Below are positions 9,401 to 28,029 of a stretch of DNA of 30,793 nt, piece by piece. The notes under the pieces were generated by a model. The model ran no database searches. It saw nothing but the letters and a program-made list of their open reading frames with translations, and was not told where the DNA came from. The stretch covers positions 1-30,793 of IMG/VR virus record IMGVR_UViG_3300043331_001637; one strand, written 5' to 3'. Positions within the stretch are counted from its first letter, which is position 1; each line of letters opens with the position of its first letter. The DNA is from a virus. The position numbers and the translations under genes were made by a program.

Positions 9401-9535
9401 GTCGGACAGACTCTTACCGGTAGTGGCGCCAGCGGCCTCGATCTTCTTCAAAGCGGAGATGCCGATATTGCTGCCGGCATCCATGCCGGTCGCATCGAGG
9501 CCCAGTTCGATCAGCGCATCGCCGATCAACGCCAT
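6434..9535 (-). CDS. Tail tape measure protein
   Basis: A 1033-residue, alanine- and glutamine-rich, largely helical protein placed straight after the tail chaperone pair, which is the usual tape-measure position. A hydrophobic stretch (about 228-282) can form the membrane-active region. The C-terminus contains a glycine-rich block and the lambda-family signature GRPYIVGERAPELFVPDASG, followed by a short tail ending in GDRYN. Repeated helical units of about 75 residues in the C-terminal half start with EVQEIGRQLDDAQ, EVQNLARDLQAAK and RIQDLRRQLEDQE. By the usual relation of about 1.5 angstrom per residue, the tail would be near 150 nm. GGAGG lies about 10 bases before the ATG, which follows the TAA of the chaperone gene directly. 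Confidence 0.95.
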   Translation of the reverse strand: MALIGDALIELGLDATGMDAGSNIGISALKKIEAAGATTGKSLSDLGSKLSKSFGQVGLAASAARQKTVAELQAIAKQYEAVRALVSKAIITNVKPTAQSMLGFLQKEKVPVQGLSAQPQVTAFTTAFTAQHAAIRAGQGATEAGRAGETAAALRTAAAAQAGALRESTESIAAAAAQYRLLGAAGTESLNSIQQAAKGADEATRRVGGGARLVETAVTRLDGASRKLKPAISLLFSSIGAFGPISSFFGAALLQLSTGISAVTIASGAAIIGIVGFATALNRRSEQIQAFDEALRTNNSDFFIKEIDRLNKTIRDLDATSSTYLGRVLTRLSQFSKGESFFPGTLRQQVQDLNAGLQAVRTEKLEAVTEQLDRQRLLANEPTQTGKIALEGKFATTDAIKDARALRATSDEVLAVGKKVRETTQAQIGAVARDFVQGIKDQNAGLQGQVVALTQSKEAAIDYEAGLIRLRAKQTGVSTSSKELNDQIAQFRSISLGAAQATLADQLTKQNQALRVQITEMTSGKAAAEELALQYQLADSKLKNYGAAALAAAAAQRQLNDEAAKAVVPQALRELADQRSTARATGEILGPTFNAAQAEADAIRNTIEGLLAQKDPRARGAARAEAIKLKVELDQASLRGIQTELASGLALDEGFADLFNRTFTNTFDEAASRVDRLTDALERAREAGLSPLSEEVQEIGRQLDDAQLAEAFGGIERDLKIAQAEAQLLGRSFNLPAEQVGILQQRLRDMLERGLSPARIEVQNLARDLQAAKVDEVFGDLSRDLETSRLSAEAFGGSFDQVTANINALTNAIKRLIEEGLDPLDPRIQDLRRQLEDQEMFRVYRDAAEDAFDLVTDGLLGNIKSWEDFGNRVKGILDDLAAEILRHQFRKLLNEIFKPPEVSVPGGGGGAGGFLGSIFGSLFGGGGTADIFAGGGASAAEQAAGAIGSAIGLQGGGHAVSGRPYIVGERAPELFVPDASGSVIPIHKMMGAGGGQNNTFNFHGVQDMDSFRRSQAELSAKLSRAVRKGDRYN

Positions 9536-10245
9536 TTACTTGATCCTCCGAAACACGCCAGGCAGGGCGGTTATGAGAGCCTTGAGCTTGCTGGCAACAC
9601 CGGACCCGCCGGCGTCGTCATCCTTGCGCTTACGCTCGACTTTGGGGAGAAACTCTTCGACTTCGGCGCTCTTGCCCGTGAGAAAGCTCGCGACCAGACG
9701 GGTCTGCATCGCGATGGTTAGGGCGAGATACGGCTGACCGAACGGCTCCACTTCGTAGTACATCTCCCACTCCGTGATCTCGGTCGCTGAGAGCTGCTGC
9801 TGCAGAGCCGTAACGGACGGAATCCCCAGAGCGAGCGCTAGGCGGTAGTAGAACCGCCTTCGCCCGTCTGGGGCCTGGAGTTTTTTCGGAGTCGCTCGCG
9901 CTCGGCCTTCGTCATCCCCGAGAGGTTGAGCACCGTGTCGAAGATGGTATCTAGGGCCGCCGCGCTCAGAGAGCCCAGGCGTTCGGAGTCCTCGTCGGAG
10001 AACATCCGAAGGCCAGTTTCGTCGGCCAGCCCCCTGGCGGCGACGCGGCCCCGCAGGTTCTTAAGGCTTTCGCGCCGCTCCTCGATCGAGGTTCCTTCCG
10101 GCGCCGAAAGCCACGACTCCACTTCGTCACGCTCATCGGCGGTGAGCTCCCTGACATTGACGTGACCCTGCCAATCCTCAACGAAGACGACTTGCGTCTT
10201 CAGATGCTTCTTGGACAGGATGGCGTCGCGCGATAAAAGATCCAT
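9536..10245 (-). CDS. Tail assembly chaperone GT, made by -1 frameshift
   Basis: Frameshift product joined from 10245-9880 (zero frame) and 9880-9536 (minus-one frame), 236 residues. The -1 frame stays open across the end of the first gene and continues as GRRRFYYRLALALG, ALQQQLSATEITEWEMYY and EVEPFGQPYLAL, the hallmark of the T part of phage tail chaperones. An ATG exists at 9763, but it lies in the middle of this conserved block, so a separate start there would cut the domain. The slip site is A AAA AAC in correct phase at 9886-9880. As with lambda gpG and gpGT, the long form is expected to recruit tail-tube subunits to the tape measure. The frame geometry is seen directly; the function is by family. 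Confidence 0.88.
9838..10245 (-). CDS. Tail assembly chaperone G (zero-frame product)
   Basis: A 135-residue protein between tail tube and tape measure. It begins MDLLSRDAILSKKHLKTQVV, has the VRELTADERDEVESWL block seen in phage tail chaperones, and ends in GEGGSTTA. The first 122 residues are shared with the GT form and the last 13 are read only without frameshifting. The short form should be the main product, as in lambda, where G exceeds GT by tens of times. A purine-rich GGGGAAG lies before the ATG. Confidence 0.88.
   Translation of the reverse strand: MDLLSRDAILSKKHLKTQVVFVEDWQGHVNVRELTADERDEVESWLSAPEGTSIEERRESLKNLRGRVAARGLADETGLRMFSDEDSERLGSLSAAALDTIFDTVLNLSGMTKAERERLRKNSRPQTGEGGSTTA
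9880..9886 (-). promoter_or_regulatory. -1 ribosomal slippery site (A AAA AAC)
   Basis: On the minus strand, the zero-frame codons read CGA AAA AAC TCC. The heptamer A AAA AAC follows the X XXY YYZ rule exactly, so both tRNAs can re-pair after slipping back by one base. The -1 frame reached is the one that encodes the T domain. The zero-frame stop (TAG at 9840-9838) lies about 40 bases further on. I did not identify a clear stimulatory stem-loop or pseudoknot. Confidence 0.88.
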
Positions 10246-10279
10246 AAAGCACTTCCCCTTTCCCTTTCAGACTAAAAGC

Positions 10280-10789
10280 CTACGGAATGGTCACGGCCCC
10301 GGTCGGCTTGAGCGTTATGTCCCCCTCAAGCATCCCTGCCACCGGTCCGAGGATAGACACGCCGGTCACGTACGACTGGAAGGCGTAGGTCGCGTTCGCA
10401 AACTGCGGGATAACGAGCTGCCAGTTGCGTAGCGTCTTGGCCTGAGCCAGCCCCTGATAGCCGGTCGCGTTGTTATGAGTCGCGTGGTTCGGCAGAAAAT
10501 TGACGCGGAACGTCACCTCCGGGTGGCGCAGAATGGTGAGGATGATCTCCTCCCAGTCTCCCGGGCTATCGTGGTTCGTGCCGTCGAGCTGATCGACGGA
10601 CATGAGCGGAAAGGTGATGTCCTTGACCTCCGCGATCGTCGTGAAAGCTTCCGGCGAAGCGCCGTCGCCCATCTTGAGCTGCAAGCCCTTCGCCGCTTTA
10701 CCCAACAGACCGCGCTCGTTCCGCAGCGGTGAAGCCAGACTCCAGAACCAGCAGGTCAACAGACTGAACAGGTATCGAATCACTCGCAT
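10280..10789 (-). CDS. Major tail tube protein with hydrophobic N-terminal extension
   Basis: A 169-residue protein. From about residue 28 it follows the usual tail-tube pattern: GLLGKAAKGLQLKMGDGASP, AFTTIAEVKDITFPL, DWEEIILTILRHPEVTFRVNFLP and a C-terminal GDITLKPTGAVTIP. Such proteins form the hexameric rings of the siphovirus tail. The ATG at 10789 has an excellent ribosome site (GGAGGA, 6 bases away) and overlaps the end of the preceding gene by 10 bases. It adds about 27 residues, rich in Leu, Trp and Phe (RVIRYLFSLLTCWFWSL), not usual in this family. No better start is visible downstream, except a TTG near residue 29 without a good site. Confidence 0.82.
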   Translation of the reverse strand: MRVIRYLFSLLTCWFWSLASPLRNERGLLGKAAKGLQLKMGDGASPEAFTTIAEVKDITFPLMSVDQLDGTNHDSPGDWEEIILTILRHPEVTFRVNFLPNHATHNNATGYQGLAQAKTLRNWQLVIPQFANATYAFQSYVTGVSILGPVAGMLEGDITLKPTGAVTIP

Positions 10790-11019
10790 GGCACTTCCTC
10801 CGTGACGGTAAAAGGTTTGCCGTCGGGGCCGAGAATAACGCTCTGGCGCACGACGGGTTGCGGTTCTTGTTGGTGACACGACAAATGACTTTTCAGCGAT
10901 TCCAAATCGGTATCGGCGTACACGCAGGCCGGACAGTGATAATTGGGCAGGCCCGACCAGGTCGTCACCTCGATCTGGGCGTCGCCGATGAAAACGTGCT
11001 CGGAGATTCGTTCCGTCAT
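10780..11019 (-). CDS. Small protein with C2H2 zinc-finger motif
   Basis: A 79-residue protein with the spacing C-x2-C-x12-H-x3-H in YHCPACVYADTDL to HLSCH, a classical C2H2 zinc finger pattern, flanked by beta-forming sequence (ISEHVFIGDAQIEVT, SVILGPDGKPFTVTEE). The start at 11019 overlaps the stop of the tail terminator gene (ATGA). Short zinc-finger proteins at this spot next to the tail tube are seen in other siphophages, but their role is not known to me. It could be a structural or assembly factor, or bind nucleic acid. Confidence 0.72.
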   Translation of the reverse strand: MTERISEHVFIGDAQIEVTTWSGLPNYHCPACVYADTDLESLKSHLSCHQQEPQPVVRQSVILGPDGKPFTVTEEVPCE

Positions 11020-11435
11020 TGAGCCGTCCCCGCTAGCAGAAACTCGAAGTTGCAGCTGAACTGCTCGCGTTCGTTCTCGTCCCCGCCGATCGGAAACGGG
11101 GTCTGGCGCGGCCGCACCTCCAGCACCGCTGAGCTTCCGACCGCCTGGTTGCAGAGCTTCGCGAAGGCGTTGTAAACATCCCAGCACTTGGCCCGGGCGG
11201 TCACGTAATCCTTGGACCGTGTCAGCACCTGGAGCGTCGGCCGCGTATACGAAGGCTCCGGTCGGTCATGGACGTGGAGCGGATCGGCGCCGGACGTTTC
11301 GATCAAGGCGATCGCGTCATCGCCACCCTCGAGCGGCCAGCCATTCACGAACATGTTCTGGTTCGGTGTCCCGCCAGGAGCGTAGACGCCGATACCGAGC
11401 GTGTTCAGATAAGCGAGCAAGTCGTCGACGATCAC
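11016..11435 (-). CDS. Tail terminator / minor capsid-type tail completion protein
   Basis: A 139-residue protein starting at a GTG (11435) that overlaps the stop of the preceding gene (GTGA). Features: an N-terminal helix VDDLLAYLNTLGIG, then HDRPEPSYTRPTLQVLTRSKDYVTARAKCWDVYNAFAKL, the pattern of the phage tail terminator/minor capsid family (role of lambda gpU). It caps the tail tube and joins it to the head. The position between the gp10-like gene and the tail tube fits. The longer in-frame extension upstream is not used. Confidence 0.8.
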   Translation of the reverse strand: MIVDDLLAYLNTLGIGVYAPGGTPNQNMFVNGWPLEGGDDAIALIETSGADPLHVHDRPEPSYTRPTLQVLTRSKDYVTARAKCWDVYNAFAKLCNQAVGSSAVLEVRPRQTPFPIGGDENEREQFSCNFEFLLAGTAQ

Positions 11436-11872
11436 AGCTTCAGTTCGCTCCGGATGTGTTGCGCCATGCGAGCGTCCATCGTCCCGAGCGCCGCGTTGAA
11501 CGGCTTCTCGAGGTACTTCCACTCGCCGGTCTGAGCCCAATGCTGGTACTTACGGCCCGAGGGACTCACCCCGCCGGTTTTGCCGGCGCGGGGATTCTCA
11601 TGAACCGAGAGCGCGTAGGGCGCCGCCGGTCCGCCGAAGCCGCACCGAACTTTGACTTTGCGCCCCGAAACTTTCGGCGGTTCGACGAAGCCGGAATTGC
11701 GTAGCGTGCCGAAATCGACCGGAACGTAATTTTCCTTGGAGTCGCCGATGATGCGCTCGCCTTCCAAGAACAAGAACTTGACCCCGGACTGGAACGCCCG
11801 CTGACCGATCAGGCGGATCAGCCGCGAGCTCTCCGGAAATCCCTTGCTCTTGAACGTCTTCGTGTTCGCCAT
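11432..11872 (-). CDS. HK97 gp10-like tail completion protein
   Basis: A 146-residue basic protein in the position of HK97 gp10. The pattern is typical: an N-terminal amphipathic helix, then VPVDFGTLRNSGFVEPP, a strand with VRCGFGGPAAPYALSVHE, a His- and Trp-containing loop (KYQHWAQTGEWKYLEKPF) and a C-terminal helix ending HIRSELKL. It takes part in head-tail joining. The start at 11872 overlaps the stop of the 22-residue gene upstream as TGATG. The GGGAG before it is close, so coupling is likely. Confidence 0.85.
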   Translation of the reverse strand: MANTKTFKSKGFPESSRLIRLIGQRAFQSGVKFLFLEGERIIGDSKENYVPVDFGTLRNSGFVEPPKVSGRKVKVRCGFGGPAAPYALSVHENPRAGKTGGVSPSGRKYQHWAQTGEWKYLEKPFNAALGTMDARMAQHIRSELKL

Positions 11873-11940
11873 CAGCTCCCCAGCAGAAACAAAACCGTCA
11901 GACCGATCCCAAGGACGAGCAACCAATCCAACTCGTCCAT
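11872..11940 (-). CDS. 22-residue single-pass membrane microprotein
   Basis: A very small frame read by hand: ATG at 11940, 22 codons, TGA at 11874-11872. The peptide opens with the acidic MDELDW and then has a continuous hydrophobic stretch (LLVLGIGLTVLFLLG), enough for one membrane span. GAGGA lies 7 bases before the ATG, and the stop overlaps the next start as TGATG, so the frame sits exactly in the gap between two structural genes with proper translation signals. I infer that it is translated. Function is unknown; it might be a lysis accessory protein or only a device for coupling. Confidence 0.6.
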   Translation of the reverse strand: MDELDWLLVLGIGLTVLFLLGS

Positions 11941-11950
11941 GAGCGTGTCC

Positions 11951-12292
11951 TCATGTGTAAACCACCAAATGATGCAGGCCCCCCTGGGAGTCCTGCGGAT
12001 CCACGCGAATGATCGGCGGCGATTGCGGATCGTAGGGAGCCGGCAGAATCAGCTGGTCTTCCTTCTTGATCGCGTGGCTTTCGACCGCGACGTAAATCGC
12101 GTAGCGGCTCACCTTCTCTTCTCCGGTGGTTTGATCCCGCACTTTCGCACCGCCGGTGCCTTGAATGGCCGCCTGGTAACTGACGGCATCGCCATAAACT
12201 CGCTTGTGGTATGCATCGACGCCGGTCGCCGGCTTGACCTGGATGGTATGCGGCATCATCCAGAGCCAAAGGCCGATCCCAGGAGCTCCCAT
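11951..12292 (-). CDS. Head closure / head-tail connector protein
   Basis: A 113-residue beta-rich protein with HTIQVKPATGVDAYHKRVYGDAVSYQAAIQ near the N-terminus and SRYAIYVAVESHAIKKEDQLILP in the middle, the general pattern of SPP1 gp16-like or lambda FII-like stopper proteins. It lies between the gp6-like connector and gp10-like protein, the conserved position for head closure. The assignment rests on pattern plus order rather than a specific motif. Confidence 0.7.
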   Translation of the reverse strand: MGAPGIGLWLWMMPHTIQVKPATGVDAYHKRVYGDAVSYQAAIQGTGGAKVRDQTTGEEKVSRYAIYVAVESHAIKKEDQLILPAPYDPQSPPIIRVDPQDSQGGLHHLVVYT

Positions 12293-12646
12293 TTAGGGCA
12301 GCCTCACCACGGCGAACTCGATCTCGGCGTGGTCCGCCTCGAAGTAGAGCATCCCGTCCGAGGCCTGCTTCCAGCCTTCCGGCTGGGAAAACGGCCCGAA
12401 CATGTGGACGCTTCCAGCGGCGAGCGATTCGTTGGTGATGTCCTTGGTGCGGCCGCGAGTATCGACCGCCGAGGTGATCGTCACGTTATGCGGGGTCGCC
12501 CCGGTATTGCGCGCCAAGATCATCTCCTTGCCGGTAAACGCGCACTGGTGATCGTTCGCCGGATCTGCCGCCGTCCACGACAAGGTCACGCCCGCAGCCG
12601 GGTAAGCGCCTAGACAGATGTTCGGGTTGATCGTTGCTCTGGGCAT
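12293..12646 (-). CDS. Small structural head protein
   Basis: A 117-residue protein: an N-terminal block with ANDHQCAFTGKEMILARNTG, a strand pair with HNVTITSAVDTRGRTKDIT, then GSVHMFGPFSQPEGW and a C-terminal YFEADHAEIEFAVVRLP. This is a widespread small beta-sandwich protein between connector genes in siphophages, probably a virion protein. It has a strong ribosome site (TTAGGAGG) next to the stop of the connector gene. The exact role is unknown. Confidence 0.7.
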   Translation of the reverse strand: MPRATINPNICLGAYPAAGVTLSWTAADPANDHQCAFTGKEMILARNTGATPHNVTITSAVDTRGRTKDITNESLAAGSVHMFGPFSQPEGWKQASDGMLYFEADHAEIEFAVVRLP

Positions 12647-12655
12647 TTTTTCCTC

Positions 12656-13528
12656 CTAAGCCTGCGCGGTCCTGACCCACGGAATGAGCATGCGCTCACT
12701 TTTCAGAGGGAGGCCGCTACTTTGAGTCGAGAGCGTGTCGGCAAAAGACACCGAAAGGTCGCCGATCGACTGAGACGAAATATTGCCGCCTCCAACGCCA
12801 CGCTGGATGACGTGAGCGCCCATCGCATCGAGGGTGGCCCGCTCGATCTCCCGAGGAAGCGTCCGTACTTGAAACAGCACTTGCGGCCCAGCGGACTCAT
12901 CCCCGCCAAGATTCTCCGAAACCACCACTTCGCCCTCGGTGGCCGATGCCACCGTGAAAAACCCGTTGTTGCCGGCGGTCGCGAACCCGCTCACACGGAT
13001 CCGCTCGCCTTGGGCGAGAACGGGGAAGCCATTGGCGGAATCGAGGAACTTCTTGGTCGCCTGCTGCACTGAGAACGTCGTCCCTTGAAGATCATCGCCC
13101 GGGAGAAGAAAGCCGCCTGCGTACTCGACGGTGAACTCCGGATTCTCCGTCCCGGCCATGCCGCGATCGGTAATCCAGCCGACCAAGCCAGCGGTCCACT
13201 CCCAGCCGCGCGACCGATAGAGCGAGCCCGCCAGCGGGTCGTCGATCACGAAGTCGGTAATGGTCTCGCCGCGGAAACTCACCGAATAGACCTGCATCAC
13301 CGGCGTTCGTTCGAGGAGCATGTCGGTGGTGCCGTAACCGCGCACGGTTTCGATCACGCGCTGACGGCAGAAAACCCTGTGACAAAAAGACTCAACGTAG
13401 GCAGATATTTCGCCGATCAGATCGGCGATGTACTCATGGCTCGCCGCATCCGTCGCCGGATTGTCGAGCAGGTACTTCGCGAGAGTGGTGAGCTCTCGCG
13501 TTTTTTCGTGTCTGACTACGCTGAGCAC
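12656..13528 (-). CDS. Head-tail connector (gp6-like) with inserted beta domain
   Basis: A 290-residue protein. The N-terminal helices (LTTLAKYLLDNPATDAASHEYIADLIGEISAYVESF) and the C-terminal RTLPREIERATLDAMGAHVIQ match the gp6-like connector family, which forms the ring under the portal. Strands such as LLERTPVMQVYSVSFRGE and PEFTVEYAGGFLLPGD are also typical. Relatives have about 200 residues; the extra about 65 (residues 152-219) form a beta domain with GERIRVSGFATAGNNGFFTV and EVVVSENL. That domain has a look-alike in the tail hub at 4156-5796. It may stick out from the neck. Confidence 0.82.
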   Translation of the reverse strand: MLSVVRHEKTRELTTLAKYLLDNPATDAASHEYIADLIGEISAYVESFCHRVFCRQRVIETVRGYGTTDMLLERTPVMQVYSVSFRGETITDFVIDDPLAGSLYRSRGWEWTAGLVGWITDRGMAGTENPEFTVEYAGGFLLPGDDLQGTTFSVQQATKKFLDSANGFPVLAQGERIRVSGFATAGNNGFFTVASATEGEVVVSENLGGDESAGPQVLFQVRTLPREIERATLDAMGAHVIQRGVGGGNISSQSIGDLSVSFADTLSTQSSGLPLKSERMLIPWVRTAQA

Positions 13529-13531
13529 GGT

Positions 13532-13858
13532 TTACTTCTTCTTTTTCCCAGGGCCGCCGCTGGCATCGGAGAGATCGACGGTGGCTGGCCCCGGTCCGGG
13601 ACTGCCGGCCGACGAACCCTCGCCAGCGTCAGGCGACTCCAGGGGCAATCCGAGATCGTCCACCGGAGGAGGCGGCGGAGGCGGCTCGGGAGGCGGAGCC
13701 GTCTTTTTTGCAGGTGCTTCGGGTTGCGCCAGATCACGGATAAACTCCGCCGCCCCTTTTTTGATCAGCATGTCGGCCACGTCGGGCGTGAAGCCGCAGA
13801 TCTCTCCCGCGTTGTTGCAGCCGTAGGGCTGCTTTAGCTTGACGACGATAGCGTTCAT
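13532..13858 (-). CDS. Proline-rich small head-module protein
   Basis: A 108-residue protein with an N-terminal domain (NAIVVKLKQPYGCNNAGEICGFTPDVADMLIKKGAAEF) that resembles the short phage proteins in which a MuF- or gp53-like segment marks a loss of rigid residues, followed by a long linker rich in Pro, Gly, Ser and Ala with eight or more consecutive prolines and a basic KKKK end. AAGGAG lies before the ATG. It lies between decoration and connector genes. No function can be assigned; the C-terminal half is probably disordered. Confidence 0.72.
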   Translation of the reverse strand: MNAIVVKLKQPYGCNNAGEICGFTPDVADMLIKKGAAEFIRDLAQPEAPAKKTAPPPEPPPPPPPVDDLGLPLESPDAGEGSSAGSPGPGPATVDLSDASGGPGKKKK

Positions 13859-13887
13859 TCTGCCTTGCTCCTTTCAGCGCCCAGGGC

Positions 13888-14358
13888 TCAGGGCACCGGG
13901 TTCTGGTCCGCCCCGCCCATAACGAAGACCGCGGCGATCGCGACGGTATCGGTATTGGCCCGAGACAGATCGGCCGTCAGCTGGAGACGGATGTACTGCT
14001 TGGCCCCGACCAGCGGGACCGAGAATTCCGTCACGCCCTGGAAAGTGCCGCCGCCGCCACCGGCCTGAACGATAGCGCTCGGGAACGCCGGGGACAGGTC
14101 GGCCGTGTCGGAACCAAAGTTGGACACCGATGAGGTCTGAATGTTGGCCGCAATCGACAGGCTCTCTGAGGCGCCGATCGCCGCTTCCCAAACGATCATC
14201 ACTTTGCAGCTGTGGTACTTTTTGGTCAGCGCGAGCAGATCTAGAGCCGGGCCGTTGACCTCCACGCCGTCGTTGCCGGCGCCTGCGGTGATGACGGCCG
14301 GGATGCGAGCAAACTTGCCGGTGATCAGCGCGCCGATGTTTTCGGAAATGAGATTCAT
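13888..14358 (-). CDS. Probable capsid decoration/structural protein
   Basis: A 156-residue protein straight after the major capsid gene. It has alternating strands (CKVMIVWEAAIGASESLSI, GVTEFSVPLVGAKQYIRLQL, RANTDTVAIAAVFVMGG) and a glycine run (AGGGGGTF). The DLSRANTDTVAIAAVFVMGG end is the pattern of a common virion protein beside HK97-like capsids. It probably sits on the capsid surface. AGGAGGG lies before the ATG, and a hairpin precedes it. Confidence 0.75.
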   Translation of the reverse strand: MNLISENIGALITGKFARIPAVITAGAGNDGVEVNGPALDLLALTKKYHSCKVMIVWEAAIGASESLSIAANIQTSSVSNFGSDTADLSPAFPSAIVQAGGGGGTFQGVTEFSVPLVGAKQYIRLQLTADLSRANTDTVAIAAVFVMGGADQNPVP

Positions 14359-14377
14359 GGTTTCCCTCCTGGTGGGT

Positions 14378-14398
14378 GGGCGGCCTCAACGGCCGCCC
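14378..14398 (-). other. Intercistronic GC hairpin between capsid and decoration genes
   Basis: Perfect 8-bp inverted repeat GGGCGGCC/GGCCGCCC with a 5-base loop, in the gap between capsid and decoration genes. No U-run follows on the transcribed strand, so it is not a simple intrinsic terminator. It may protect the 3' end of capsid mRNA from exonucleases. Confidence 0.6.
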
Positions 14399-14435
14399 GT
14401 CTCAACACCAACAAACGGATTGACTAACTACTCGA

Positions 14436-15638
14436 TTACGTACCCCAGATGACGCCGGTCAGAACCGCGACCGATTCCAGGTGGCGGACCACCAGGTCGG
14501 TCTCAACGATGGCGCGAAGCACGCTCTGATCGAGCGACCAGGCCGAGACCACCTGACCGGTGCCGCTGTCGTAGTACGCAGCTTCGGTCGAGACCTCGAC
14601 CGCGATCGTCAGCGCATCGCCGATCACGACGTCAGCGAAGTCCGCAAAATAAACTTCCGACTCGTTGGAACCGCCGCCGAGGTTGATGGGAATCTGCGTG
14701 GTCATCTTGAACGGGTAACCGTTCAGCCGACCCATCATCATCTCGTCGTGGTAGACGTAGTTGCCGTTGCCGTCGCGCAGGAACATGAGGTGCAGCGCGG
14801 CGCGCGGGGCCATGAGCCAGCCGGGCCGAATCATCCGGACGTTGGCCGCGAACAGTCGCAGCATCAAGGCCTCGAGATCGGTACTGACGTTGTCGAGCGT
14901 CTGGCCGGCGCTGCCGAAAACATTGGCGGCCGGAGCCCAGTAGCGCAGCCCCTTGGGGCTATACAGGGTGCCGTTGCCACGGATGTACGCGAGATCGGTT
15001 CCTTGACCGATCGCGGCGACTAGGTCGTCGCGGATGATGCCATCGGAGCGGGCATCGGCTCGGCGCAACAAATCGTTCGAGATCGGCAAGGTCGCGCCGC
15101 CCTTCTTGGCGACCAGGACGACGTTGCCGGCCGTCAGAGCGGTGGAGCCGAGATTCTGGTTCTCACCGATCCAGCTGAACTGCGCCCCGCCGGTGACCTT
15201 GGGGATGGGCAACTGGCCGCGCGGCAAATCCGCGAGCATCGGGTTCATGGACCGCACCACGGAGGCCGGCCGCAAGAGCTCGATAATGTCCGAGGAAATG
15301 TCCGGTGGAATGAGCGCCCCGCCGTCGGCGAACGTGGTCGCCGCCATCGCTTTGGTGATGACGTCTTCCGGACCGTAGATTTTCGCGGCGTACTCGACCG
15401 GGCTGATCGGGGTGCCGGACCGCGACACGACTTTGGAGCCGCCGATCGCCCGGATATAACGCGATGCGAGGTGGCCGACTTCGTGCTTCGGTTCGGGTTT
15501 CGGCGTGTGGACGATGCCCGACTTCACCAGGGCGGTGATGGTCTCTTCGATGTTCGGCGAGAACACCGGTTTCTGTTGCTCAAGGATCTCACCGAGGCAG
15601 CTCTTGATGAGCGTCTTGAGTTGATTTTCGTCTAGCAT
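14436..15638 (-). CDS. Major capsid protein, HK97 fold
   Basis: A 400-residue HK97 gp5-like protein. The N-terminal about 100 residues look like a delta (internal scaffold) domain: helical, charged, with the core starting near GGALIPPDISSDIIELLRP (106-124). Core markers follow: ADLPRGQLPIPKVTGGAQFSWIGE, the ISNDLLRRADARSDGIIRDDL spine helix, GNGTLYSPKGLRYW, the A-domain WLMAPRAALHLMFLRDGNG, and the C-terminal VIGDALTIAVEVSTEA strand. Cleavage by the upstream prohead protease should fall at about 95-106 (inferred). GGAGGG lies before the ATG. Confidence 0.95.
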   Translation of the reverse strand: MLDENQLKTLIKSCLGEILEQQKPVFSPNIEETITALVKSGIVHTPKPEPKHEVGHLASRYIRAIGGSKVVSRSGTPISPVEYAAKIYGPEDVITKAMAATTFADGGALIPPDISSDIIELLRPASVVRSMNPMLADLPRGQLPIPKVTGGAQFSWIGENQNLGSTALTAGNVVLVAKKGGATLPISNDLLRRADARSDGIIRDDLVAAIGQGTDLAYIRGNGTLYSPKGLRYWAPAANVFGSAGQTLDNVSTDLEALMLRLFAANVRMIRPGWLMAPRAALHLMFLRDGNGNYVYHDEMMMGRLNGYPFKMTTQIPINLGGGSNESEVYFADFADVVIGDALTIAVEVSTEAAYYDSGTGQVVSAWSLDQSVLRAIVETDLVVRHLESVAVLTGVIWGT

Positions 15639-15666
15639 GTTGGACTCCCTCCTGTCTTCGAGAGCG

Positions 15667-18630
15667 TTAGAAGACTCTGCCGGTCTTCTCAGTCACGAAC
15701 TCGCGCAATGCGTCCTGCATCGCGCGCTTCAGCACTTCCTCTTCGCTCAGCTTCGGCTGAGGCGGTTCGGGCGGCAAAGCCGCAGTCTTTTCCAGGTTGA
15801 TGGCGTCTAGCAGTTGCTGGATCGAGGACTTCGGGACGACGCCGTCGGCCCCGGCCTCGGATTTCACTCGGACTTGTCCCTCGCCGGTGAATTCATAGGC
15901 GTCGGGACAATGCTTGAGGGCTTGCGCCTCGACGAAGCGGTAATCGGGAGGCAGCTTGTCGAACTGGCGGTAATGGTGCGCGAGGTGCTCGTAGACTTCC
16001 CTGCGCTGGGAGGCCGCCACCTGGTCGATCCCGCCCTTGGCCCCGATCAGGAGCGCCATCGCAGAACGGACCCCGGCCCACACCGCTTTTCCTTCGGCGT
16101 CGTGATGCTGGAGGTAGCACTCCCCATCAGCATCAACCCAGGCGAAGCTGCCGACAGCGCGGTCGCGAACATCGGAGGCAAAGTCGGAGACATGCACGCG
16201 ACCCGGCAGCTTCGCCCAGTCGTCAGACTCGGAGACTTCGTCGCAGGGATCGCGCGGCACGTACTGAGAGATAGCCACATGGCCCGGACTGGTCGTAACG
16301 ACCTCTTCGGGGTCTTCGGAGGGAGCGCCGCGTTTCATCGGGCAGTTCTCGCCCCTGGGGCAGTACTCCATGCCCTCTTTCATCGGGCACTTGTCGCCCA
16401 TCGAGCACCCCTCTTTGACGGCCTTGGGCTTCCACTCGCGGACCGACTTTTCGAACGATTCCTGGATTTCGCGAATCGGCGTATAGCGGTTGGGCAACGT
16501 CTGGTTGATCAGCTCGCGCTGCTCGCGAACCTTGGTGAGAGCCTCCTCGACCGCCTTGGCGAGATCGACGTTGTCTTCGCGCTCGATGATCCTGGCGAAC
16601 CGGGCCAGATCCCGCAGATGCGCGCCCGAGTAGCCCTCGGTATCCTTGGCGATCGCCTTGACCGATTCCGGCTCGAGATCGGCCAGCCACTTGGCGAGCA
16701 TCCGCTCGCGCACCGCCAGGGAAGGCAGGCTGATGGACAAAACATCGTGGAACCGGCCGGGCCGGTCGATCAGCGCCTTCGGTAGCTGGTCCGGGTAGTT
16801 CGTCGTCAGGAGCGTGATAACGCCCTTGTGCTGCACCAGGCCGTCCATCTCGGTCTTGATGAGATCGACCGTGTGCGAACTCATCCAGCCATCGACGTCC
16901 TCGAACAGAACGATCGACGGCGCGTTCTCGCGCGCCAGATCGAAGGCGTGCGCGAATCCGCCGAATGATCCCGAGTACCAGAAGTCGCGTGCGCTCACCC
17001 AGATGAACGTGGTGTCGGGAGCCTCTTTCATCATCACTCGGGCGCTCAGCGTCTTGCCGGTGCCCGGAGGCCCCATCAGAATCACGCCGCGGTTGTCCAT
17101 CGACTCTTTCTGCGAGTTAACGACCGCGACCGCCCGTTTGAGGGCTCGCTCATTCTTGGGCTCGAGGAAGACGTCGTCCCAGGTCTCGGTCGCGCTGGCG
17201 CGGTCAATGAACTGTCCGGAGAGGGCGAAGGCCTCGCCCTTGAGGAACTTGAGCTCGGCCGCCCGCTCGGCCACGGCGCTCATAAAGGCGTCCGATACCA
17301 CCTCGCCGATCTTGCCGTAGTTGGTGATCGCGACGCCGTACCAGGTGGGCTCGACCTTGACGACGATCCGGGCCTCGTCGGTGATGCGCGAGAGAAACCG
17401 TGCACCCTCGATCAGAAAACTGCGCGACGATTTGGAATTGAGCTGGATGGTGTCGTATCGCGGCGGGCACTCCTTGCCGGTGTAGTGGTCGAGGTTGCGC
17501 ACGTCATCGACCGCCCACTGAGACAGCCCTTCTTGCAGCGCCGTCAGATAAGCGCCCATCTTGGCCGAAGAGACCGTGCGATAATCCTCGGTGATCTCCT
17601 TCACCTCGCAGTCGAAGTAGCGCGCCACGAGCTTGTATTCGGCCGTGAGCGGTTCGAACCGTTCGCGAGTAACGTCGAAAGCCTTGGACAGCTGGACGTT
17701 CCAGCGCTTCTCTTGGTCCCAATCGCGATACTCAGAAGCCTGCGCGCCTCCGGCGCGGGGGGCAAGTCCCGCGCCGGAGTGATTTGCCGCGTCCGTCGAA
17801 GGTAAGCCGGTGGGTGAGTCCGGCTTCGGCGCGGCTGGCAAAACGGTCTTGGCGGCAACGATGACCTTGTTGCCGTTGGAAATTTTGTGGATCGCCTCGA
17901 TCTGGCCCTTAGTCAGATAGAGGCCTTCATGCTCCTGCCACTCGTCGAGTACTTGCGCGGCCCAGTCGCGCATCGGGTGCAGATCGACACCGGCCGACTT
18001 GGCGCCGACGAGGGCGTCGGGATTGGATCCGACCGGGACAAACGACCATTCGAGCAGCTCCTGGGTCTTGAAGTCGTAGCCCTTCTCGTCCTCGTTGTAC
18101 GTCCACGTCCGCGGGTTGAAGCCGACGCTCGCGCCCTTCATCCAACCACCCTTGACCATGTCTTCGATCGTGCCGGCGAACGGATAGATTTCGCGCGGGA
18201 CGAAAGTCGGGTAGCTAAGCAACGCGCCTTCGCGTCGCACCGTCTGGGGCGCCATGCCGACGTTCGGCGACTTGTGATCGTGGGCGAACAGGATGACCGG
18301 GTTCTTGAGGTAGGCGCTCAGGTCCCAGCCTTCGACGGCCAGGGTGTCCTTGTCGCGATCGCGGGTCTCGTTGGAGATGAGGACGTAGATTTGACCGCCG
18401 CCGTCGCGCTCGACGAGCTGGGCGGTTTGCTTGATGATGCGGAGCTTTTCGGCGTTTGCTTCGCTTCGCTCTTTGATGGCGAGCGCGGCGAAATCGGACC
18501 GGGAGATAACCGCAGGGAGGCCCGATTGTTCGTGCGGGTGCTCAGCCTCGCACTCGGCCAGGCTGGAATATTTGCACTCGCCGTTGACCCCCCACTTATA
18601 CTTTCCGTCGGAGCAGGCTTGACAGGGCAT
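15667..18630 (-). CDS. Prohead protease fused to BCS1-like AAA+ ATPase
   Basis: A 987-residue protein starting at ATG 18630, with GAGGTG 3 bases before it. Domain order: a Cys-rich N-terminus (residues 3-30), a prohead protease domain (about 80-215) with the conserved His pair HDH at 117-119, Ser168 in GASVGF and the ELLEWSFVPVGSNP signature near 190-204; a helical/beta region (about 305-475); an AAA+ domain (about 480-700) with Walker A GPPGTGKT at 520-527, Walker B IVLFEDVD at 573-580 (Glu-Asp order as in BCS1 ATPases), sensor-1 Asn611 in TTNYP and a RPGR arginine-finger motif at 623-626; a cluster of four cysteines (742-763); and a C-terminal domain (about 800-911) with REVYEHLAHHYRQFDKLPP, similar to scaffold-like ends of phage proteases. 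It lies before the capsid gene as protease genes do. The frame is continuous, so the fusion is real in this sequence. Inferred role: ATP-driven unfolding tied to proteolysis during capsid maturation. Confidence 0.9.
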   Translation of the reverse strand: MPCQACSDGKYKWGVNGECKYSSLAECEAEHPHEQSGLPAVISRSDFAALAIKERSEANAEKLRIIKQTAQLVERDGGGQIYVLISNETRDRDKDTLAVEGWDLSAYLKNPVILFAHDHKSPNVGMAPQTVRREGALLSYPTFVPREIYPFAGTIEDMVKGGWMKGASVGFNPRTWTYNEDEKGYDFKTQELLEWSFVPVGSNPDALVGAKSAGVDLHPMRDWAAQVLDEWQEHEGLYLTKGQIEAIHKISNGNKVIVAAKTVLPAAPKPDSPTGLPSTDAANHSGAGLAPRAGGAQASEYRDWDQEKRWNVQLSKAFDVTRERFEPLTAEYKLVARYFDCEVKEITEDYRTVSSAKMGAYLTALQEGLSQWAVDDVRNLDHYTGKECPPRYDTIQLNSKSSRSFLIEGARFLSRITDEARIVVKVEPTWYGVAITNYGKIGEVVSDAFMSAVAERAAELKFLKGEAFALSGQFIDRASATETWDDVFLEPKNERALKRAVAVVNSQKESMDNRGVILMGPPGTGKTLSARVMMKEAPDTTFIWVSARDFWYSGSFGGFAHAFDLARENAPSIVLFEDVDGWMSSHTVDLIKTEMDGLVQHKGVITLLTTNYPDQLPKALIDRPGRFHDVLSISLPSLAVRERMLAKWLADLEPESVKAIAKDTEGYSGAHLRDLARFARIIEREDNVDLAKAVEEALTKVREQRELINQTLPNRYTPIREIQESFEKSVREWKPKAVKEGCSMGDKCPMKEGMEYCPRGENCPMKRGAPSEDPEEVVTTSPGHVAISQYVPRDPCDEVSESDDWAKLPGRVHVSDFASDVRDRAVGSFAWVDADGECYLQHHDAEGKAVWAGVRSAMALLIGAKGGIDQVAASQRREVYEHLAHHYRQFDKLPPDYRFVEAQALKHCPDAYEFTGEGQVRVKSEAGADGVVPKSSIQQLLDAINLEKTAALPPEPPQPKLSEEEVLKRAMQDALREFVTEKTGRVF

Positions 18631-18641
18631 GGACACCTCGC

Positions 18642-18704
18642 AATTGGGACGCCTCAACAGCCGGCGGGCTTGCGCCACACCGGAGATCAAGGGCCGTCCC
18701 AATT
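18642..18704 (-). ncRNA. Predicted structured RNA leader of the protease-AAA gene
   Basis: On the minus strand, an outer 10-bp stem is formed by AATTGGGACG and CGTCCCAATT (perfect inverted repeat). Inside lies a second hairpin CCGGTG-T-GGC-GCAA-GCC-CGCCGG, with a GCAA tetraloop (GNRA type), a G-U pair and one bulged U. The G-U pair exists only in the minus-strand RNA, the transcribed one. The 3' arm ends 3 bases before the SD of the protease-AAA gene (ATG at 18630), so a folded element would be close enough to influence ribosome access. No U-run follows, so it is not an intrinsic terminator. Cis-regulatory function is inferred from structure and position. Confidence 0.5.
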
Positions 18705-18768
18705 ACGGGGTCGGGCCCGTTCGAGGAAAGACGATTCGAGCTATGAACGATTCTCAAAATTTTGTCAA

Positions 18769-22258: not shown

Positions 22259-22466
22259 AGAGCTCCTTTCCCTTGTCGCCCGCCGGAACGTAGCGTTCCG
22301 CGAGCCACGGCCGATTACAGTTTTGCCCGACTCTTTGCTCGAGCTGGTAGACTTTGGCGATCACAAACGCGATCAGATAGACGTTGGCGGCCACGAGCGT
22401 AAAGCGGGCCAGCCACTTGCCGGCGAACCAAAGTCGCAAGATCACCCGAAGCAATCGCAGGTTCAT
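22200..22466 (-). CDS. Small membrane protein
   Basis: An 88-residue protein with a basic N-terminus and one long hydrophobic segment (about 20-40: LARFTLVAANVYLIAFVIAKV), then a polar C-terminal half. The ATG overlaps the stop of the portal gene (ATGA), which supports translation. It overlaps the SH3-like gene by 59 bases. It might be a holin partner or spanin-like protein, but no lipobox or family match is visible. Confidence 0.62.
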   Translation of the reverse strand: MNLRLLRVILRLWFAGKWLARFTLVAANVYLIAFVIAKVYQLEQRVGQNCNRPWLAERYVPAGDKGKELYGKHVRVQTWAEGPDHRER

Positions 22467-24889
22467 TTGAGCACCAGGCGCTGGCTGCAGCGGCAGTTCG
22501 GATGGGCGGTTGGCCCCATCACCTTGCGGCCGTCGCCGGTGGTAAACGGTTCGTTCAGCCCGACCTCTTGGCCGGTCATCGGCTCGCAGACTTCTTCGTC
22601 GAGACGGTCATCGGGTGTCACGATCCAACGACGCTTCTGGTTGGAGGGCAGATAGCCCTGATCGACCGCCTGCCTCCAGAGCTCCCGCTGACCCGCCGAA
22701 GCCGCGTTGATCGTTTCGGTTCGGGCAATCATCATCGAGCGTTGCCGGAGCTGGGCCGCCGCGTACCGTTCGACGCGCCGCTGGATCTCGGTCGTGGTGC
22801 CGACGGTCTCGTAGAGCTTCACCTCGAAAGCGGCGACCTTGGCCGCTTGCCGCCGGGTGAGTCCGACCACTTCCCGAATCAGCTGGGCGGAGCGCGCCGG
22901 CGGGAGGCCTTCGATAAATGCCAGCTCGATGATCTCGCGGACCGCCTGCCGCTGGGAATGACTGATCTCGCGGATGAGGTTGGCAACGGCGGTGCGGACC
23001 GCCTGGATCGCCCGCGGGTTGGTCATGTCGAACCGCCCCTCGAGGGTAGTGTTGTCGTCGGCTTTGCGGTGGCCTCGGTGAAGCTGCTTGCGTTCGAGGA
23101 GTTGATCGACGTAGCGGGCCTCGGTCTTGGCTGCCTGCTCGAAGGTGTTGGTGAAAACCGCGCCGATCTTTTGCTGCTGGGCGCGTTGCAGGGCGTCCAT
23201 GCCGACCGCGGTGAAGGCGATCGCCGACTCTCCGGCCGCCATCGCTGCCGTAAGCGCCCGCATGTCGATTTTCTCTTTGCGCTCATCGGCTGCGGCGAAA
23301 GCCGCCCGCCACATGTTGTTGAAAAATTTATCGGCAACGGCGTGGATCAGCCGGTAAACGCGATCGGCGGGCTCGACGTCGACGAATCGCGACTTGACCG
23401 AGCGACGAGGCGGTCGTTCTTCGTCTTGTTCGGGCTCGTCCTGCTGCTCTTCCTCCTCTTCCTGCTCGTCCTCGTCCTGCTCGTTCTGCTCGTCGTCGTC
23501 ATCATCGAGGCCGCCGCGATCCGGCAGGGAGAACGGGTCGGCGATCGGCTCGCCCACCTGGTCGACCGGCACCGGCGTCAGGCTGTAGGGCATCATGAAG
23601 AACTTACCCTTGTTATCGGGGAGCGCCTCGAGATCCTGGAGCTCGCGCCACTCGTCGAAGTCCCGAGTCCAGGGGGCCGCCTGCGCGACCTTGAGCGCCA
23701 TCTCCTTGTCGGCCGGGATGGTCGATTCGTATTCGAGGGAAAGCCGCGCGTCGAAATCCGGCACGAGCTGGACCTGCAGTTCGTTGCGGATGAGCGATTG
23801 GCGCGGGTCGATCACCAGCTTGTTGAACAAATAGTCGGCCCCGTCGATGCCGGCGCGCAGCGGGTTGGCGATAATGCCGAGCACCTCGGGAGGAACGTTC
23901 CAGACCTGCTGGCAAACGTCGCGTTCCCACTTGCGCAGTTCGTGGAACTGCATGGCGCCGAAGTCGTGGCTGAACTCGTGGACCGAGACCTCGCCCGACA
24001 TGAAGTGCGGCAGGAACTGGCGCCAGAAGCCGCGATGCTTTTGCATCCACTCCTGCTGTAGCCGCTTGGTGTCGTTGGGCGCGATGCCCTTGCCGTAGAT
24101 CAGCAGATCGGGGCGCGCGTTGTTGTAGAAGAACGACTTGACGTGCTGGGCCGCGTACTCGTCCGTTTCGATCTCGTCATCGACCGACTTGGCGACTCCG
24201 ACGCCCCGGCCATACGGATCCTGGGCGTTGAGTTCGCGCAGCCAGATGACTTCGGTCATCGGAATCGGATCGCTTACGAGCCGCGAGCCGAGCTTGAAGA
24301 ACGGATGCCCTGGAAGCGGGGTGGCCTCCACCCAGTTGGGTGGGACCGGCCACAGCCCGATCGGCATGCCGAGCTCGTTGCGTTGCTTGAGAACGAACGC
24401 ATCGCCGGTCGTCTCCAGCCAGATTTGCACCAGCTTGATGACGGCCGACCCCGCCATGTAGGGGTTGGCGCGAATGAACAGGCTCAGCAACGGGTGGCTA
24501 TCGATCCGCTCCAGCTGGTTCTGCTTTTCGAAGCGGCGGGCGGCCTTGCGTCGAGCCGGGCGGCCAGGAGCGAGCTGCAGCGAGGGAGAACCTGTGGGGT
24601 CGCCGTTGAGGCGGCGCACCTCGAGAAAAAATTCGGTGTTGCTGACCGTCGTGCTGATGCGGTTCACGATCGAGCGCACCCACGGCAGATCGTTGTAGGC
24701 GCGGATCAGATCGGCAGTGGCGCGCGGGGGCGGGGATCCGCGAGTGGGAAGAAGATTGGCGAACAGGCCGACCGTCGTAGCGATGGGATCGAAGATCGCC
24801 GCAAGAGCTCGTGCCGCAATTCCGACACGTTGGCGCGGTTGCGTGTTTGTCTCGGCCATCGAGGGAGTTACTGAGAGCCCTCTAGACAA
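22463..24889 (-). CDS. Portal protein fused to Mu gpF-like minor head protein
   Basis: An 808-residue protein. Residues about 55-455 form an HK97-family portal (LIRAYNDLPWVRSIVNRIS, GDAFVLKQRNELGMPIGLWPV, KHRGFWRQFLPHFMSG, NVPPEVLGIIANP); about 461-492 is an extremely acidic linker; the C-terminal part (about 505-808) is a Mu gpF-like minor head domain with TRRQAAKVAAFEVKLYE, IARTETINAASAGQRELW and the Cys/His pattern TAHPNCRC. In most phages, these are two genes. The start chosen is TTG at 24889, which has GGAG 8 bases before it; the ATG at 24859 lacks a site nearby. The portal is the ring through which DNA is packaged, and the MuF domain lies inside the head. Confidence 0.92.
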   Translation of the reverse strand: MSRGLSVTPSMAETNTQPRQRVGIAARALAAIFDPIATTVGLFANLLPTRGSPPPRATADLIRAYNDLPWVRSIVNRISTTVSNTEFFLEVRRLNGDPTGSPSLQLAPGRPARRKAARRFEKQNQLERIDSHPLLSLFIRANPYMAGSAVIKLVQIWLETTGDAFVLKQRNELGMPIGLWPVPPNWVEATPLPGHPFFKLGSRLVSDPIPMTEVIWLRELNAQDPYGRGVGVAKSVDDEIETDEYAAQHVKSFFYNNARPDLLIYGKGIAPNDTKRLQQEWMQKHRGFWRQFLPHFMSGEVSVHEFSHDFGAMQFHELRKWERDVCQQVWNVPPEVLGIIANPLRAGIDGADYLFNKLVIDPRQSLIRNELQVQLVPDFDARLSLEYESTIPADKEMALKVAQAAPWTRDFDEWRELQDLEALPDNKGKFFMMPYSLTPVPVDQVGEPIADPFSLPDRGGLDDDDDEQNEQDEDEQEEEEEQQDEPEQDEERPPRRSVKSRFVDVEPADRVYRLIHAVADKFFNNMWRAAFAAADERKEKIDMRALTAAMAAGESAIAFTAVGMDALQRAQQQKIGAVFTNTFEQAAKTEARYVDQLLERKQLHRGHRKADDNTTLEGRFDMTNPRAIQAVRTAVANLIREISHSQRQAVREIIELAFIEGLPPARSAQLIREVVGLTRRQAAKVAAFEVKLYETVGTTTEIQRRVERYAAAQLRQRSMMIARTETINAASAGQRELWRQAVDQGYLPSNQKRRWIVTPDDRLDEEVCEPMTGQEVGLNEPFTTGDGRKVMGPTAHPNCRCSQRLVLK

Positions 24890-27432: not shown

Positions 27433-28029
27433 CTACGTGCCCGTGGTGGTGGTGCTGCCCCAGGTCACGCTGAACACCACCGCGTTCGAGGCGGTACGGT
27501 CATCGTAATCGCCGAGAATCTTGAGCGCCAGCTCGTGGACCTCCAGGTTGCGGCTCGATTCGGCGAAGGCGGACTCGGTCCTGCGGATCAAGTCGTTCAG
27601 CAGTTGCTGCCAGAGGTTCACACCGCGTTTGACCGAGACGTCCTTCGACCGTCGCTGGAGTCCGTCGATGGACTGCCGCTGTACCATCTGCTGGCGCTTG
27701 AGATCGGCGATCGCTCCGCGCAGCCGGGTAGCGGCCGTGCCGACCAGGTGATGCGTGACGTCGTCCTTGAGGAGCTGCATGAACTGTTGCAACAGGAGAT
27801 CGCGCGCCAGCGATTCTATCGAATTCGCTGGAGGCTCCTCGCCGGTCCTGTCGTAGGCGAGCCGCTTCACAGGATCCTTCAGGCAGGCATACGCCCGGTT
27901 GATTTCCGCCATCACGTTCGGGTCTCCGCCGCGATCGGGATGGGACTCAGCGGCTCGCCGGCGAAACGCTCGCTGGATTTCTTCCTGGGTGGCGTTCTTC
28001 TTGACGCCGAGCTTGTCGTAGTAATTCAC
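27433..28029 (-). CDS. J-domain (DnaJ-like) cochaperone
   Basis: A 198-residue protein starting at GTG 28029. Residues 1-60 are a J-domain: MNYYDKLGVKKNATQEEI, helix with FRRRAAESHPDRGG (the invariant HPD at 30-32), and AYACLKDPVKRLAYDRTG. There is no Gly/Phe or zinc region, so it is a class C type. The rest is helical to about residue 180 with a short beta end (VVFSVTWGS). J-proteins bring host DnaK to specific clients; next to terminase, the client may be terminase or capsid parts. The HPD motif is intact, so interaction with DnaK is likely. Confidence 0.88.
   Translation of the reverse strand: MNYYDKLGVKKNATQEEIQRAFRRRAAESHPDRGGDPNVMAEINRAYACLKDPVKRLAYDRTGEEPPANSIESLARDLLLQQFMQLLKDDVTHHLVGTAATRLRGAIADLKRQQMVQRQSIDGLQRRSKDVSVKRGVNLWQQLLNDLIRRTESAFAESSRNLEVHELALKILGDYDDRTASNAVVFSVTWGSTTTTGT

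Follow-up and report, generated by a model that had tools for sequence, protein, structure and literature searches.

What would an ATPase contribute to a phage capsid maturation protease? This question is raised by a gene in the window analysed here, i.e., the entire IMG/VR virus record IMGVR_UViG_3300043331_001637 (30,793 bases), in which a single open frame encodes both an HK97-type prohead protease and an AAA ATPase module. HK97-type maturation serves as a model for the shape change of a protein shell and is described as drawing on proteolysis and on conformational energy stored in the shell, with no part for ATP; to our knowledge, no studied phage has an ATP-powered capsid assembly or maturation step. 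Both parts of the protein are of known kinds. It is their joining, as a recurrent ATPase-bearing maturation protease, that appears to be new, with no published description of a protease–AAA fusion found in a literature search that had most subscription journals outside its coverage.

The fusion gene (P0001; 15667..18630, minus strand; 987 aa), recognized through Pfam and PHROG matches, runs from an ATG at 18630 to a stop at 15667-15669 over 987 codons without an internal stop, and GAGG lies a few bases 5′ of the ATG; the coordinates given in a preliminary description of this locus were right, the strand being minus. Prohead protease genes are usually located between the portal and major capsid genes, and this is where the fusion gene sits. 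The gene for the HK97-fold major capsid protein (14436..15638, minus strand; PF05065, E 1.6e-37, residues 106-394) starts 28 bases downstream, preceded by AGGAGG, and its product carries an N-terminal (delta-like) region of ~100 residues ahead of the HK97 fold. On the other side, the portal (22463..24889, minus strand; PF04860, E 4e-34) shares a single frame of 808 residues with a Mu gpF-like head morphogenesis domain (PF04233, E 1e-7). The packaging/head module also contains a gene for a J-domain (DnaJ) co-chaperone (27433..28029, minus strand; PF00226, E 1e-16), through the product of which host DnaK may be drawn into building the head.

The N-terminal part of the fusion protein is a HK97/S78-type prohead protease domain (residues ~60-230; 17941..18453, minus strand), identified by its matches to the head-protease families PHROG 617 (E 4e-13) and PHROG 80 (E 4e-12), by invariant residues, and as a predicted folded unit. 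Against Pfam S78 (PF04586), the window protein scores 18.9 bits (E 0.0018), under the cut-off of 21, which its relatives pass. His117, Ser168, E194, and S196 are invariant in an alignment of 49 sequences, with His117 and Ser168 the catalytic candidates; the preliminary description had named both of these, together with His119, which is not among the conserved columns. Its assignment to the HK97 type is borne out by the PHROG matches, the invariant His and Ser, and the adjoining HK97-fold capsid gene. Behind the protease domain follows a linker (residues ~251-309; 17704..17880, minus strand) predicted to be disordered (pLDDT 31-50 in the full-length model), the length of which varies from 16 to 299 aa across relatives.

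At the other end of the chain, the protein has a C-terminal prohead-protease domain and a tail ending in TGRVF (residues ~814-987; 15667..16191, minus strand), separated from the AAA module by a disordered stretch in the model of the window protein. For comparison, we used relatives of the window's capsid protein with 36-53% identity. The proteases encoded upstream of these related capsid genes are 272-492 residues long and lack an AAA module, and several of them share the end of the tail. Three such unfused proteases (L008, L010, and L011) carry the C-terminal domain directly after the protease, which bears out the C-terminal domain proposed earlier. Since unfused relatives carry both parts adjoining, the AAA module is best described as inserted between two parts of an ordinary prohead protease. 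Other domains, too, are inserted behind the protease domain, a hotspot illustrated by long unfused proteases of 600-865 residues that have no AAA module (L169, L186, L147, L155, and others). A four-cysteine cluster noted previously (residues ~742-763; 16342..16407, minus strand) is indeed present in the sequence between the AAA module and the C-terminal domain, as a duplicated C-x5-CPM motif that is possibly a small metal site; as a feature of the family it does not stand, being found after the AAA module in 9 of 70 members, and it was ruled out as part of the mechanism on account of this lack of conservation.

The inserted module consists of an N-domain (residues ~305-490; 17161..17718, minus strand) and an AAA ATPase core with lid (residues ~491-712; 16495..17160, minus strand; PF00004, E 4e-19, residues 516-633). 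Across the 70 sequences of the family alignment, K and T of Walker A (GPPGTGKT, residues 520-527; 17050..17073, minus strand) are invariant, as are E, D, and D of Walker B (IVLFEDVD, residues 573-580; 16891..16914, minus strand) and, in the sensor 1 and arginine-finger segment (TTNYP and DRPGRF, residues 609-627; 16750..16806, minus strand), N and the whole DRPGRF. Walker A, the ED-x-D Walker B, and the DRPGRF motif are intact in all of 103 modules, in agreement with the earlier reading of a full AAA+ module. The family departs from the usual AAA pattern in two respects: Walker B has the order ED instead of the usual DE (70/70), and column counts over the 70 sequences reveal no aromatic-hydrophobic-glycine pore loop 1. 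By sequence, the core is closest to Cdc48/p97, not to Bcs1. The N-domain has no sequence relative in Pfam, PHROGs, or the PDB, apart from one PHROG that matched 1 of 38 members (E 0.001), and an N-domain profile run against PDB chains retrieved neither Bcs1 nor YjoB at E values up to 10.

The predicted structure points elsewhere than the core sequence. The AAA module as a whole (N-domain, core, and lid; residues ~305-712) was modelled with a pLDDT of 92.5 and a pTM of 0.87, and in a Foldseek search of the PDB, ranks 1-10 were all Bacillus subtilis YjoB or Bcs1, over 399-431 aligned columns. A second structural aligner likewise gave YjoB (PDB 7w42; Z 21.4 over 356 residues) as the best match across N-domain and AAA, and Bcs1 at Z 18.2 over 347 residues, with other listed AAA proteins aligned over mostly ~220-260 residues. 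Because proteasomal AAA proteins have Z values that differ little from these, YjoB and Bcs1 stand out by aligning across the N-domain as well. The window protein is nonetheless distinct from both: its identity to YjoB is 17%, the solved YjoB chain of ~400 residues lacks a prohead protease domain, and Bcs1, the mitochondrial translocase of the folded Rieske protein, has an N-terminal transmembrane helix that is absent here, where the module is instead fused to a protease and has a core nearer to Cdc48/p97. In the full-length model, the protease (~80-200) and the AAA module (~325-710) fold well, with no prediction of their mutual arrangement (pTM 0.51).

These data uphold the previous designation of the module as BCS1-like, with respect to its modelled fold, its ED Walker B, and its missing pore-loop motif, the last also a property of Bcs1. 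They do not favour the substrate threading that had been derived from it. Bcs1 has no conserved substrate pore loop and translocates folded protein in a concerted manner (PMC11143374), i.e., a published mechanism that is likewise not threading. With no aromatic pore loop and a Bcs1-like predicted fold, folded-protein handling is thus likelier than the threading of unfolded chains, and a Bcs1-like handler of folded proteins fits the module better than a threading unfoldase would.

Is the joining of the two activities peculiar to this virus? Scans with the whole protein or with its AAA part alone matched a single contig, L002, which is identical (100%) to positions 9535-18719 of the window. The family was opened instead by a nucleotide pattern built on the sensor-1/arginine-finger block (TTN[YH]P...RPGRF), which, together with a module-alignment scan (best 80 of 163 relatives), yielded 70 distinct modules; a further AAA scan, which became saturated with Walker A matches, added 5, for a total of 75 distinct modules from uncultured viral contigs. 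In 64 of these, one frame encodes a protease domain followed by the module (for L035 and L041, both counted among the 64, the complete form was seen as L067 and L062). Three more (L044, L052, and L028) are AAA–protease–capsid proteins of 1071-1112 residues in a single frame, with matches to Pfam AAA, S78, and Phage_capsid; this is the arrangement of the protease–capsid fusions of PHROG 617, which itself spans protease and capsid only, with an N-terminal AAA module added. In L058, too, the AAA module, the protease, and the capsid protein share a frame in the same size range (1071-1112 residues). When triple fusions were examined for an internal start from which the capsid part might be translated separately, 2 of 4 had no convincing ribosome site and the others were ambiguous.

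Five of the 75 modules are separate genes adjoining the protease gene, with the protease first in L089 and the AAA gene first in L111, L116, L211, and L213. In L111 (4196-6505) and L116 (2695-4902), the AAA gene has an extra N-terminal region of ~300 residues, and a long acidic tail is present on the protease. The three remaining modules have no readable context, as two (L047 and L082) run off the contig end and in one (L132) a short duplication within the protease causes a split. No module was found away from a protease among the 75 collected, and 67 of the 75 are fused, such that the fusion recurs beside HK97-type capsids in other phage genomes, as the preliminary description had suggested one should look for, and homologues are far from being confined to separate genes. 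At least 70 related uncultured viruses therefore carry a capsid protease joined to, or adjoining, a motor of the Bcs1/YjoB kind.

Two qualifications apply to the reading of these counts. The collection was found via the AAA module and thus shows that the module is accompanied by the protease, while saying nothing of the kind about proteases in general; being drawn from the best-scoring relatives (best 80 of 163), it also leaves room for more distant members to behave differently. Moreover, among 76 newly fetched loci with the proteases closest to that of the window, AAA was present in 1. As the closest proteases mostly lack it, the module is an accessory, and capsids of this type do not generally require it.

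Within the family, strongly supported branches of the AAA tree require at least two changes between the protease–AAA and the AAA–protease–capsid order and at least three splits into separate genes. As read from these branches, the partners remain together while the architecture around them changes. On the protease tree, the triple-fusion proteases form one supported clade, whereas the AAA modules attached to them fall among modules that belong to other proteases, indicating that modules have been exchanged. Several independent gains of the AAA module, as suggested by 6 changes on the protease tree, were considered and dropped, since a single clade uniting the AAA-bearing proteases was not rejected (p 0.60).

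We propose that the product of this gene is a capsid maturation protease of the HK97 type that is powered by ATP, in which the ATPase would remodel a folded capsid-side protein, a reading to which we assign a probability somewhat short of even (about 45%). Within it, the AAA module is most likely an ATP-driven remodelling module that would reach the immature head together with the maturation protease. The tail would bring the protein, protease included, into the immature head; the AAA parts would assemble into a ring; and ATP hydrolysis would move or dislodge a folded capsid-side protein, with candidate targets including delta/scaffold bundles, misplaced capsid subunits, and the protease itself. 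Cleavage, release, and expansion could then proceed. Action on a capsid or scaffold protein during maturation is inferred from the constant link to the protease and from the shared tail, the AAA module lying between the catalytic domain and a tail common to unfused proteases. A kept protease link, conservation of both putative active sites, a capsid gene next door, and a modelled Bcs1/YjoB fold together suggest the same. Known HK97-type prohead proteases (Peptidase_S78; PHROGs 617 and 80) share the protease domain, the His and Ser, the C-terminal tail, and the position upstream of the capsid gene, and they differ in having no ATPase, where here 400-500 residues of N-domain and AAA are inserted or placed in front. 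Counting against our explanation are the closest proteases, which do without the accessory module, the crowding that triple fusions would cause inside a prohead unless first cut off (see below), as well as the sequence affinities of the module itself, with a core nearest to Cdc48/p97 and an N-domain profile devoid of a Bcs1 match. Slightly more tentative is the wider formulation that, across a broad range of uncultured tailed phages, a Bcs1-like ring would accompany the maturation protease and remodel folded capsid or scaffold protein in or at the prohead, for ATP-dependent maturation or proofreading of HK97-type heads.

Alternatively, the AAA module could be a dedicated cytoplasmic chaperone acting before assembly, which would keep capsid protein or protease soluble or undo wrong assemblies, with the fusion fixing its dose and location. 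The nearest fold, that of YjoB/Bcs1, speaks for such a role, as does the J-domain co-chaperone gene in the same module of this phage. The triple fusions make the AAA module equimolar with the capsid protein, as expected of a factor acting on the nascent subunit. One AAA–protease of ~70 kDa would be expected per capsid subunit, and by our estimate ~400 of these would fill or exceed the interior of a T=7 prohead; either the AAA–protease of triple fusions must be cut off, or the module acts before closure, and this space limit keeps the chaperone explanation alive. Most members, however, tie the module to the low-dose protease and not to the capsid protein, and most have it upstream of a protease-type C-terminal tail. 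We consider this explanation unlikely on balance, albeit deserving of attention.

Decidedly improbable is a classical ATP-dependent protease in the manner of Lon or FtsH, with a ring that would unfold its substrates and feed them by threading into the serine protease joined to it. AAA and a protease that is apparently active, judging from its residues, do share one chain, as in FtsH and Lon, and the arginine fingers and nucleotide site are intact. FtsH and Lon, however, have proteases of unrelated fold, rigidly coupled to AAA rings with canonical pore loops, whereas the present family lacks the aromatic-hydrophobic-glycine pore loop, occurs in both domain orders, and joins its domains through flexible linkers; a linker of 16-299 residues, disordered in the window protein, speaks against a coupled degradation chamber.

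Still more doubtful is a role in some other step of head formation or infection, be it the loading of folded proteins, portal or membrane-proximal assembly, or evasion of host defences triggered by sensing of the protease. Iyer et al. (2021) suggested virion-assembly roles for BCS1 orthologues of jumbo phages, proposing that they move folded proteins into heads (PMC7824862); these are likewise phage-encoded AAA proteins of the Bcs1 type, yet they are stand-alone genes, for which the consulted part of that article describes no link to a prohead protease. The prohead protease has also been reported to influence CBASS activation (cited in PMC13236601). Membrane-proximal action finds little encouragement in the window protein, which has no hydrophobic membrane segment (maximum 19-residue hydropathy, 1.18). 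An assembly error, a possibility raised at the outset, or a fortuitous join between two genes can be dismissed, as nothing was found in its favour and the same join is present on more than 60 other contigs as well as on the identical L002.

The ATPases are tied to the maturation protease in every readable context here and so point to an ATP-dependent step, suggesting that shell assembly or maturation in these viruses has an ATP-powered component. If true, this would be a remodelling step new to the capsid maturation pathways studied so far, as well as a bacterial-virus use of the Bcs1 fold, the handling of folded proteins by which is otherwise known mainly from mitochondria. Protein searches of ~50,700 phage records returned matches to the AAA core or the protease core only, never to the N-domain, and the module alignment had a single match (L134) among 84,980 bacterial and archaeal species genomes; in these collections, the family is thus practically confined to uncultured viruses. 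That match comes from a Cloacimonadota metagenome bin, in which a 3.4-kb contig bears both the module and the protease; this contig is probably a phage fragment and hints at one host group.
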